DNA of 43,483 bases, taken from positions 1-43,483 of the IMG/VR virus record IMGVR_UViG_3300025512_000026. One strand, given 5' to 3'. Origin of the DNA: a virus. Below the pieces are notes generated by a model that saw only the letters and a list, made by a program, of their open reading frames with translations, made no database searches and had not been told where the DNA came from. Position numbers and translations under genes: made by a program. This document shows, in pieces, positions 12,343 to 15,922 of the stretch. The first letter of the stretch is position 1. Every line of letters begins with the position of its first letter.

Positions 12343-14721
12343 TTACCGCCCCCTCCCGCGTCCTCTTGCCGTTGTGCTGGCCTGAATTTGCCGATGCAGG
12401 GCACGGCTAACCGCTTCGATATCTGCTTCCTGCCGGATGGTCATACTCTGTACCTGCACCATCGGCCCAGCGACAGCAAAAGACGGCGCCGCCCTGACGG
12501 CGCCAGCGACGGTTTCCCGTGTCTGCCTCACCTGAGTAGCAAGCGGCGAAAGCAGCTGCTCAAACGGAGCTCTTATTCGGTCAATGAGGGGGATCACAGG
12601 TCCCGGACGACCAGCCATCTCCGAGACTTCTGATGGTCGAACGTGCCTATTCATTATTGGAGAAAGGTTTTGACGTGTGGGAGTTATTTGTGGCAAGCGT
12701 GGAGGTTGGTTTGCAACCCGTGGTGCTGTAGGAGAAGCGCCGCGTATACCCGCGCCAGCGGATACAACTGCCCCTTGTGCCGCTGCAGCCACCTCTCTCA
12801 GTCTTGCCATCGTGCCGTCAGCGGCAGCTCTGATGTCTGACAATGCAGCCGTGACCATGTTCCTAAGTTCCATCGGATACGGCCCCATCCCCTCGACCAA
12901 GCGCTGTCCAAAAGTTGCGCCGATGTCGCGCCAGCCGTCGCCGTACGTGCGAAGGAGTGCGAGGATCGCAGTCTGATTTTGTCCAATAATCAGCTTTTCC
13001 GCCTCGCCACCCAGCCTAGCGTCCGACAACCTCTGTTCCCACATGGTCTCGGCCGATGTTTTGGCGTTTGTTTCTTCTGTGGATAGTGTTTCGAGCTGAT
13101 CTTGCAGACGCTTGCGTTCGTTGTCCCGCTCAAACCTGCGGGTTTTGTCGCCGATAGTTTTTTGAAGCTCCGCGATACGGTTCTGGATATCGGCTCGGCG
13201 GCGGGCGTCAGTTTCGTACGCCAGTTCACGCTGGAGCAGACTAAGCTCATCCTGCTTTTCTGCCATTTCCCGGGTATGGTCTTCACGCCTTGCGCCTTCG
13301 TCCAGCGCATCTAGTTGCTGTTCGATGATCCTGCGCCTTGCCTGGTAGATTTCGCTCAAGTTCCGCAGTGCGATATCGCGCTCTTGTGTGTACTTACGCC
13401 GCAGAGCGTTGACGAGTGCATCATGCAACCTGTCTATTCTGCGCGTTGCGCCCTGTACCGCGTCCTGTGCCTCCCGCGCAGCATTTGCTACTTCTCTGCC
13501 GGCAGTACGCGCCGCTGCGCCGGTATTTCGCAATGCTCTGCTGAATGTCTGAGTGCCTGCAGTAGACCGATCAGTGGATGTCTGCTGCCTGCGCAGTTCG
13601 GCAATGTGGTCTTGGAGCGATTTGTTGCTGCCCCGTGTGGCTTCCGTTTGTCTTATCATGTGGGCTGCCATCAAACCTCCGGCTGCAGCACCAGCCAACA
13701 ACCAAGGTTTCAGCGCCGCTAACGCCGCGAATTTCAGCCATAGAGCCTTTGTCGCCGCATAAATCGCAGGAACCAACCCGCCGAGAATCGCACCGCCAAG
13801 GGATAGGACGGCCAAAGTAGTCCCAGGCCCGAACAGCTCTGTCACTGCGGCGGATAATCCGCGCTCTGTGACCACCTTGGCAAAAGCCTCCATTGTGATC
13901 CGCATCTCGTCAAGTGCCTCGATTGTCGCCTTCATGTGATCCGAGATGTCAAATGCTTCTATCAGGATGCCGCCCAAATGTCCCGCCGAAATTTGAACAT
14001 TATCCACAATAGTTGACCACATGCCAAGCACCGACTCCGACTGCCTGTCCATCGCTCCCTCAAAACGCTGGCCCATACCAGCAACAATCGCGTTGACACC
14101 TGTCAATCCATCAATTGCTCCTTGCTCAGCTAATTTCATAGCTTCCGGGACGCTCACTCCGATTTGCTCTGCCAACATATCCCATGCCGGAACGCCAAGC
14201 TCGGCAATCTGCCTCATCTCTTCCGCCGACACTTTGCCTTTTGCCCGCATCTGCCCCAATGCTCTGACGACACGCTGAATTTCAAACGTCCCGCCGCCGA
14301 GTGCACCGATGGAATCACCAACGGCAGTCATCATCGGGATTATTTCTTGTGCCTGAAAACCAAATGCTAACAGCATACGGCTGCTTTGTTTTAGACCTTT
14401 GAGGTCAAACGGGGTTCTTGCCGCGAACTGAGCTAGATCATCAAGGAATTCTTTGGCCTTTTCGCCCGAGCCGAGGAGTGTACCAAACGCGATTTTCGAC
14501 TGCTCCATCTGTGCGGCCATGGTGATCGCGTACATCCCCGCCGCTCCCATTGCTGCGCCAACCGCAAGGACGCCTTGCGCGAGCGTATTTGACGCTTCTT
14601 CCATCTCTGCCATCCTGCGCTCGATGGCGGTGATGTGCACTTCAGCCTGCTTTTTGGCCTGTACAAATCTGTCCATTCGCAAGCCCAGGCTCGCATATAT
14701 CGTCCCAAGGTTTACGGCCAT
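12343..14721 (-). CDS. Tape measure protein
   Basis: A 792-residue protein that sets tail length and is ejected with the DNA. The N-terminal 250 residues are the conserved tape-measure domain: IERRMAEMEEASNTLAQGVLAVGAAMGAAG, MEQSKIAFGTLLGSGEKAKEFLDDLAQFAARTPFDLKGL, MRAKGKVSAEEMRQIAELGVPAWDMLAEQIG. A hydrophobic stretch follows (about 300-350, TLAVLSLGGAILGGLVPAIYAATKALWL), then a long charged coiled coil (about 430-570) and a proline-rich C-terminus. At roughly 0.15 nm per residue, the usual ruler relation, the tail would be near 120 nm. It overlaps the end of the chaperone extension frame by ten bases. Confidence 0.92.
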   Translation of the reverse strand: MAVNLGTIYASLGLRMDRFVQAKKQAEVHITAIERRMAEMEEASNTLAQGVLAVGAAMGAAGMYAITMAAQMEQSKIAFGTLLGSGEKAKEFLDDLAQFAARTPFDLKGLKQSSRMLLAFGFQAQEIIPMMTAVGDSIGALGGGTFEIQRVVRALGQMRAKGKVSAEEMRQIAELGVPAWDMLAEQIGVSVPEAMKLAEQGAIDGLTGVNAIVAGMGQRFEGAMDRQSESVLGMWSTIVDNVQISAGHLGGILIEAFDISDHMKATIEALDEMRITMEAFAKVVTERGLSAAVTELFGPGTTLAVLSLGGAILGGLVPAIYAATKALWLKFAALAALKPWLLAGAAAGGLMAAHMIRQTEATRGSNKSLQDHIAELRRQQTSTDRSTAGTQTFSRALRNTGAAARTAGREVANAAREAQDAVQGATRRIDRLHDALVNALRRKYTQERDIALRNLSEIYQARRRIIEQQLDALDEGARREDHTREMAEKQDELSLLQRELAYETDARRRADIQNRIAELQKTIGDKTRRFERDNERKRLQDQLETLSTEETNAKTSAETMWEQRLSDARLGGEAEKLIIGQNQTAILALLRTYGDGWRDIGATFGQRLVEGMGPYPMELRNMVTAALSDIRAAADGTMARLREVAAAAQGAVVSAGAGIRGASPTAPRVANQPPRLPQITPTRQNLSPIMNRHVRPSEVSEMAGRPGPVIPLIDRIRAPFEQLLSPLATQVRQTRETVAGAVRAAPSFAVAGPMVQVQSMTIRQEADIEAVSRALHRQIQASTTARGRGRGR

Positions 14722-14930
14722 AAGTCTTCCCCCTTCCTGCCAGTTTTGTTGGCAAGAATACTGTCAATCCTGCGCTTCTCCAGCGTGTAGTAGGCGGCCG
14801 CTTCATCGAGCATAAATGCCTGCAGCCCTGATAGCTTGAAAAACTCTGACGGTCTGCAGTTATAAAACGTAGCTACGGCAACCAGCCGCTCAAACCCCTC
14901 GCTCAGTACGAAACGTGGACAATCCTTCGC
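14712..14930 (-). CDS. Frameshift extension of the tail assembly chaperone (T part)
   Basis: An open frame without its own ribosome binding site, offset by -2 (equivalently +1) from the chaperone frame. It continues AKDCPRFVLSEGFERLVAVATFYNCRPSEFFKLSGL... DLWP (72 residues). In tailed phages this position, between tail tube and tape measure, holds a G/GT pair made by programmed frameshift. The fusion at the GGGGCGA heptamer would give a protein of about 206 residues that recruits the tape measure protein. Independent translation from an internal ATG (14942) is possible, but no Shine-Dalgarno precedes it. Confidence 0.7.
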   Translation of the reverse strand, partial: AKDCPRFVLSEGFERLVAVATFYNCRPSEFFKLSGLQAFMLDEAAAYYTLEKRRIDSILANKTGRKGEDLWP

Positions 14931-15330
14931 CCCGCTCGCCATACAGCATGTAGAGGTAGATAGCGGCCAACTGTTCCGCATTCAGCGGCGCGATGGCCGT
15001 CAGTTCATCATAAGTCGGACTTACTAATGCTTGTTTCGCTAAGACATTCAGGGCTTGCAGGACTTGTTCGGCATCTTTCTCCGGGGAAGGATGTTTGCTG
15101 TTAATCTCCGCTGCGATCTCCGCTTCTGTCTTACCTTCCCGCGCCCTCTGATACGCCAGCGCAAGAAGCGGATTGCTGATGTTTGTCGACAATATCGCCG
15201 GAGTCAGGTCAACATAGCGAATTTGCACGTTGACAGTCGTGGCTGGCCGGAACCCGGGAATCGTGATAATCTCAGGCTCAGCTTGGACGCGGATGTCTTC
15301 AAGTGGTGTGGTTTTCTTTTTGTCTGGCAT
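14890..15330 (-). CDS. Tail assembly chaperone (G part)
   Basis: A 146-residue protein with an acidic helix-rich body (EGKTEAEIAAEINSKHPSPEKDAEQVLQALNVLAKQALVSPTYDEL) and the C-terminal LNAEQLAAIYLYMLYGERGEG. Size and place between the tail tube gene and the tape measure gene identify the short form of the tail chaperone, which coats the tape measure during tail assembly. The ATG lies one base after the stop of the tube gene and is probably coupled to it. A slippery heptamer spans codons 133-135. Confidence 0.82.
   Translation of the reverse strand: MPDKKKTTPLEDIRVQAEPEIITIPGFRPATTVNVQIRYVDLTPAILSTNISNPLLALAYQRAREGKTEAEIAAEINSKHPSPEKDAEQVLQALNVLAKQALVSPTYDELTAIAPLNAEQLAAIYLYMLYGERGEGLSTFRTERGV
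14927..14933 (-). promoter_or_regulatory. Candidate -2 ribosomal frameshift heptamer GGGGCGA
   Basis: On the minus strand the chaperone frame reads CGG GGC GAA here. Slipping back two bases puts the Gly tRNA on GGG and continues with GCG AAG GAT, exactly in the extension frame. GGGGCGA is, to my recollection, the heptamer described for the -2 frameshift in the phage Mu tail genes. The overlap in which a shift must occur is only about 92 bases, and no -1 option exists because the open frame is the -2/+1 one. Confidence 0.65.
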
Positions 15331-15331
15331 C

Positions 15332-15922
15332 TTAACTCAACTCCGCGGGCAAAGTATCGACAAATTCTTTATTGATGACGGACAATCCCATCACGGTATT
15401 CTCACGAGCGCGGATCGTGAACTCCGGACTCGCCCACGCCTGATCTTCATACGACACAGACGGAACCCGCCCGAAACATAAAGGATAAATTGTACGCATA
15501 AACCCATGCAGCACTCCATGGCTAAGGTAGTTGTCCACATACACTTCAGCGAGGAAGGGTAGACGTGTGCCTTGGTCAGCCAGGCGCGGCGCACGGTAGC
15601 CGACAATATTCCCCCCAGACTCTATCAGTGACCCCCCCGCCATAATCACTGTAGCTCGAGCATCAAATCTCGCGTCGCGGAAGGTTAGCTCAGCACCGAT
15701 AACCACATCTTCCTCTTCTCGGACAGCCTGTATTCTATCCCCGCCACGCAGCTGAGATTGCTCTCCTTCGGCATATGTGACTTCCTCGCCGACCGTCTGA
15801 GCTGTTCTGATGCCAAACCGCGCTGGCGCTGCAGGCATCGCCCCTGCTGCAGTGAGTTGCACTATTACAAGACCCCGGCATCCATACAGATACCCGGTTC
15901 TAACTTGAGTAGGTGTCGCCAT
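15332..15922 (-). CDS. Major tail tube protein
   Basis: A 196-residue strand-rich protein beginning MATPTQVRTGYLYGCRGLVIVQLTAAG, with EEVTYAEGEQSQLRGGDRIQAVREEEDVVIGAELTFRDARFDARATVIMAGG. This is the usual pattern of siphovirus tube subunits, a beta sandwich assembled in hexameric rings. It is followed directly by the tail chaperone, as in almost all siphoviruses. The supporting evidence is order, size and fold pattern rather than a catalytic motif. Confidence 0.85.
   Translation of the reverse strand: MATPTQVRTGYLYGCRGLVIVQLTAAGAMPAAPARFGIRTAQTVGEEVTYAEGEQSQLRGGDRIQAVREEEDVVIGAELTFRDARFDARATVIMAGGSLIESGGNIVGYRAPRLADQGTRLPFLAEVYVDNYLSHGVLHGFMRTIYPLCFGRVPSVSYEDQAWASPEFTIRARENTVMGLSVINKEFVDTLPAELS

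Follow-up and report, generated by a model that had tools for sequence, protein, structure and literature searches.

A probable +1 frameshift at a conserved UUU_CGU site joins the tail assembly chaperone genes of a family of phages

We have described here a conserved UUU_CGU junction in the overlap between two tail genes of a 43,483-nucleotide virus sequence (IMG/VR record IMGVR_UViG_3300025512_000026, referred to in full as the window), at which a +1 slip very probably joins a short tail assembly chaperone, G, to a downstream frame, T, yielding a G-T fusion that would have roles of the kind played by the phage lambda proteins. Comparison of homologous loci gives good support for a programmed frameshift linking the chaperone pair, through synteny, a conserved T domain that lacks a start, and a junction site common to the family. 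An earlier note on this DNA also placed a frameshift in the chaperone pair, as a rare -2 event of the phage Mu type at a GGGGCGA heptamer; the programmed shift is well supported, but the Mu-type -2 event at the heptamer is not.

Results

The G gene is flanked by the tail tube and tape measure genes, in the order tail tube - G - T - tape measure (Table 1). The geometry given in the earlier note agrees with what we find: the two frames overlap by 92 bases, the T frame is offset from that of G by +1/-2 (15330-14981 = 349 = 3x116+1), and the extension has no start of its own, the T-frame ATG at 14981 being absent from both L002 and L006, the closest homologues that differ from the window in G. The window G has a profile match to phrog_6280 alone, a family of unknown function, and its relatives L017 and L031 match phrog_4336, 'tail assembly chaperone' (1.6e-6 and 8e-7 respectively). 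The T of Dp-1, Dulem virus 36, and Youna2 matches phrog_6541, and an RPSE-type T domain is conserved among the homologues. When an AlphaFold model of the window G (mean pLDDT 77) was compared with BFVD, it matched the tail assembly chaperone of Mycobacterium phage Madruga (E=1.5e-3), with weaker matches to others so named; a fold search of the PDB with the same model gave no significant match. On homology, the pair is best read as a tail assembly chaperone of the lambda type, G, with T as its frameshift extension.

Table 1. Coordinates of the chaperone locus and its putative frameshift signals within the window
Feature	Position	Strand	Basis or remark
Tail tube protein (context)	15332..15922	minus	phrog_6686 E=2e-32
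G, short tail assembly chaperone, 146 aa	14890..15330	minus	ORF; phrog_6280 E=2e-15
T open frame, 89 codons	14712-14981	minus	ORF
27-nt block TATGGCGAGCGGGGCGAAGGATTGTCC	14917..14943	minus	no difference between window, L002, and L006, even at silent positions
GGGGCGA heptamer, not in the register of Mu	14927..14933	minus	
UUU_CGU, proposed +1 shift site	14908..14913	minus	UUU 41/41, CGU 37/41 distinct loci
T extension after the proposed +1 shift, 65 residues past the shared Phe	14712..14909	minus	
Tape measure protein (context)	12343..14721	minus	PF20155 E=4e-27; phrog_12798

Homologues were drawn from viral contigs, genomes, and phage records, giving 48 loci of which 41 are distinct around the junction; these loci are related by descent, and all locus counts given here are therefore of non-independent events. 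T is in the +1/-2 frame at every one of the 48. The G proteins are about 20-30% identical to that of the window, except for those of L002 (87%) and L006 (70%); the L001 G is 100% identical, and L001 is probably the same phage. L006 is a 4-kb contig (QLUB01000138.1) binned with a MAG of candidate division NPL-UPA2, and the host assignment is uncertain. Searches for extra members of the window clade found none in plasmids, in 15 genomes of the class of L006, or in 398 genomes of the phylum; an exact scan of viral contigs for the 27-nt block recovered already known loci only, and viral scans with the L019/L020 and Dp-1/MS1 alignments gave no new relatives.

The overlap contains one candidate in-frame UUU at each of the 41 distinct loci. 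The codon 3' of it is CGU in 37, CGC in two (L019 and L020), UGU in L055, and CUC in L061, whereas background usage in the same loci is 0.57 of Phe codons for TTT and 0.15 of Arg codons for CGT. The conservation of UUU_CGU could be due in part to the Phe-Arg pair in G. At no fewer than 12 loci, just 5 nt separate the opening of the T frame from UUU. L057 has the sequence AAA TCC TTT CGT TAG, in which the G stop falls 3 nt after the UUU codon and directly 3' of CGU, and this geometry limits the shift to about four codons; +1 re-pairing is available there by UUU_C only, and -2 re-pairing is impossible. The codon 5' of UUU is CCC, UCC, or ACC in 25 of the 41 distinct loci (the window and L002-L065), a bias reminiscent of the stimulatory UCC in PA-X, and the complete influenza PA-X site UCC_UUU_CGU is present in 9 of the 41 phage loci; the E-site codon of the window is ACG, as opposed to the prevailing NCC.

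The pattern of conservation changes at the same place. Upstream of UUU the mean information per column at phases 0, 1, and 2 is 0.83, 1.03, and 0.29 bits, and downstream it is 0.26, 0.41, and 0.71 bits (41 loci), such that the free position is the wobble position of the G frame upstream of UUU and the wobble position of the T frame downstream. Pairwise differences by phase are 27/13/47 upstream and 52/29/23 downstream (chi-square p=3e-5, with pairs that are not fully independent). The switch in conservation phase at UUU_CGU indicates that the coding frame changes there, as a shift at this site predicts.

We propose that most ribosomes would terminate at the G stop and that a minority would slip. 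With UUU (14913-14911) in the P site and CGU in the A site, the P-site tRNA-Phe would move one base forward from UUU to UUC (14913-14910), and translation would restart at GUA in the T frame, so that the extension begins Val-Leu-Ser. The predicted product is a G-T fusion of 205 residues, with ...GLSTF|VLSEGFER... at its junction. The tryptic peptide expected from a +1 shift is GEGLSTFVLSEGFER; a -2 product would instead give DCPR and FVLSEGFER. We infer the slip itself, its +1 direction (from the re-pairing), and its efficiency from the sequences. On bacterial ribosomes, UUU_Ynn is known to be particularly prone to +1 slippage (PMC5009743). Influenza has a proven +1 site in UCC_UUU_CGU, where the UCC 5' of UUU is stimulatory and not essential (PMC3498833), and UUU_CGN is used by amalgaviruses (PMC5052127). 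If the roles are as in lambda, G would coat the tape measure protein and G-T would bring in tail tube subunits.

A different explanation for the T frame is that it is translated as a separate protein from a start of its own, for example the T-frame ATG at 14942-14940, with no frameshift at all. The 27-nt block that is frozen in the window, L002, and L006 begins exactly at this ATG in all three clade members, and in the records of Dp-1 and MS1, T is annotated as an ORF of its own that has a ribosome-binding site. However, the ATG at 14942-14940 has no Shine-Dalgarno sequence 5' of it, T opens 5 nt before UUU and has no conserved start codon in many homologues, and a separate start leaves the conservation of UUU_CGY without explanation. 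We consider independent initiation of T to be very improbable and reject it on the missing Shine-Dalgarno sequence and the non-conserved start.

The GGGGCGA heptamer is indeed within the overlap, at 14933-14927 on the minus strand, and the earlier note was correct on the overlap, the frame, and the presence of the heptamer, but did not mention the in-frame UUU_CGU at 14913-14908. Its placement as C GGG GCG A holds as a grouping in the shifted frame; the G frame, however, reads CGG GGC GAA. The G-frame codons of Mu are CGG GGG CGA (AF083977), and the window is one base out of register. The consequence for pairing is that in Mu the tRNA-Gly on GGG can re-pair with GGG, with CGA in the A site, whereas a -2 slip in the window would leave GAA in the A site, with the GGC tRNA re-paired to GGG. 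Nor is the heptamer conserved across the homologues: it is found in 3 of the 41 distinct loci, namely the window, L002, and L006, which form one clade. GGGGCGA occurs eight times on the two strands of the window against 7.45 expected from dinucleotide shuffles, and at this chance frequency its mere presence is no evidence for a shift. What the window and Mu have in common is a string in a different register.

We nonetheless considered the reading in which a Mu-type -2 shift does occur at GGGGCGA, with the tRNA-Gly moving from GGC to GGG, translation restarting at GCG, and the product running ...YGERG|AKDCPRFVLSEGFER. The heptamer is invariant in the three sequences that carry it, silent positions included, the T frame is open from GGGGCGA onward, and the T residues MASGAKDCP are identical in the window, L002, and L006. 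These observations are set against the register (CGG_GGC_GAA in place of CGG_GGG_CGA), the absence of the heptamer from the other 38 of 41 homologues together with its chance frequency in the window, and three frozen codons that lie 5' of the heptamer, for which dual coding after the heptamer cannot account. As the event that makes the fusion, this shift appears very unlikely.

The frozen block itself counts against a simple version of the +1 model, in that a shift at UUU alone does not account for the lack of silent change at codons -10 to -2 of the window clade. The block (3371-3397 in L002 and 1400-1426 in L006) contains GGGGCGA and begins at the T-frame ATG (14942-14940). Its nine codons, TAT, GGC, GAG, CGG, GGC, GAA, GGA, TTG, and TCC, adjoin the codon just 5' of UUU and have no silent change between the three sequences. 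Identical degenerate codons number nine of nine at -10 to -2, compared with six of the 33 conserved-residue codons upstream (Fisher p=7e-5, for a 10-codon block). In other clades silent changes reach up to the site, as between Dp-1 and MS1. The freeze could stem from dual coding, from a stimulator or a minor second shift site, or from internal initiation of T, and given the frozen stretch in three members, it is possible that a -2 event at GGGGCGA acts as an extra site in the window clade.

A combined model, in which ribosomes shift mainly by +1 slippage at UUU_CGU and the frozen block is a 5' stimulator or a minor second site confined to the window clade, is an addition to the +1 explanation and compatible with it. 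The identity of all nine degenerate codons is in its favor, as are a purine-rich GGGGCGAAGGA inside the block and a local 35-nt hairpin in the window sequence (z=-2.5). However, significance for the hairpin is lost in L006 (z=-0.4) and in 85-nt windows, anti-Shine-Dalgarno pairing within the block does not exceed that of synonymous shuffles, and only three sequences are available; this model is possible but less likely than not. No conserved RNA structure was found at or after the site (85-nt windows, z -0.9 to +0.4), and the consensus fold has no net covariation support (its covariation term is positive).

A Shine-Dalgarno stimulator was examined as a separate candidate. Across the 41 loci there is a G-rich stretch resembling an anti-Shine-Dalgarno partner at nt -27 to -13 from UUU, with the best 9-mer ending 15-17 nt 5' of it, and the best family-wide pairing has a mean of -6.8 kcal/mol compared with -4.9 kcal/mol in synonymous shuffles (mean z -0.7). 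In the window clade the pairing is no better than in synonymous shuffles. A spacing of 15-17 nt from UUU is beyond the reach of known +1 Shine-Dalgarno stimulation, and the candidate was dropped on both counts.

Beyond the 48 loci, weak matches connect L031 with annotated actinobacteriophage chaperone pairs, and UUU_CGY is present at the junction in seven of the eight that were examined (Terapin, Gibbin, Nova, Damien, Labelle, FreddieHg, and Tedro), as TTT_CGC in Gibbin and Labelle. The junction TTT is the sole TTT of a high-GC gene in Terapin, Nova, Damien, FreddieHg, and Tedro; the Nova chaperone gene has one TTT compared with nine TTC, and its T frame opens 5 nt before UUU. Mycobacterium phage Aikoy (L076), a distant relative, has no in-frame TTT in its overlap; its chaperone is annotated as joined, in the +1/-2 frame, and seems to use another site. 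The archaeal myovirus HF2 has AAG_TTT_CGC AGA TAG, and TTT-CGC near the end of G has been proposed as the shift site of the Halorubrum HF1-group haloviruses (PMC7230728). The weak fold match psiM2 was set aside, its downstream frame being +2 with no site of the UUU_CGY type.

Discussion

A close known counterpart of this arrangement is the lambda G/GT programmed frameshift of the tail assembly chaperones, reportedly described by Xu, Hendrix and Duda in 2004. The lambda system, which has been reviewed (PMC5009743), resembles the one proposed here in gene order, in a T without a conserved start, and in a minority G-T fusion (here inferred), but the shift is +1 on UUU_CGU rather than the usual -1 on a heptamer. 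The likeness is one of order and frameshift layout. Mu gp41/gp56 (AF083977) is similar in that it too is a tail chaperone with a +1/-2 extension and GGGGCGA in the overlap, but it differs in register (CGG_GGG_CGA versus CGG_GGC_GAA), and the heptamer is not conserved in the family of the window.

Parallels to the site itself come from other quarters. Influenza A PA-X (PMC3498833) and the amalgaviruses (PMC5052127) have the core UUU_CGN and the +1 direction in common with the phage site, although they are RNA viruses with unrelated genes that are translated by eukaryotic ribosomes, and the window differs in having ACG in the E site. The HF1-group haloviruses have a chaperone pair in the +1 frame and TTT-CGC near the end of G, but they are archaeal myoviruses with CGC where the window has CGU, and the comparison is one of sites. 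The actinobacteriophage chaperones (Nova, Damien, Gibbin, Terapin, FreddieHg, and Tedro) are annotated pairs with a +1/-2 T and UUU_CGY, although they are distant, mostly have CGC, and are linked to the window weakly, through L031. The actinobacteriophage papers that we found do not name the slip site, and we found no paper that names UUU_CGY as a shift site of bacterial phages, subscription papers being outside the search. Programmed frameshifting of tail chaperones is already known, as is UUU_CGN +1 shifting in eukaryotic viruses, and such a site has been proposed for the HF1 haloviruses.

It is about an even chance, in our estimate, that UUU_CGY is an ancient homologous +1 site of a single tail-chaperone superfamily, kept in the lineages compared here at ~20% protein identity and convergent with the PA-X site as [U/C/A]CC_UUU_CGU, and that the window clade has gained the frozen 27-nt element to tune or redirect the shift. 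The superfamily would then extend over phages of Bacillota, Actinomycetota, and candidate phyla, and possibly archaeal viruses.

The proposed +1 shift at UUU_CGU has several implications. A claimed rare -2 site is replaced by a +1 site that can be searched for in thousands of phage genomes. The findings also suggest that a slip motif of eukaryotic RNA viruses serves bacterial ribosomes too as a programmed site, in a setting that makes it easy to study. PHROG families 6280 and 6541, both listed without a known function, can be assigned to what seem to be the two halves, G and T respectively, of a tail chaperone joined by a +1 shift.

Current records treat the T region in different ways. The records of Dp-1, MS1, and Dulem virus 36 give T as a hypothetical gene in its own right, and the T ORF is unannotated in Youna2 (L003) and in Bacillus phage BSTP5 (L004, 3541-3651). 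Part of this region in BSTP5 is instead assigned to a small antisense ORF, BSTP5_013.
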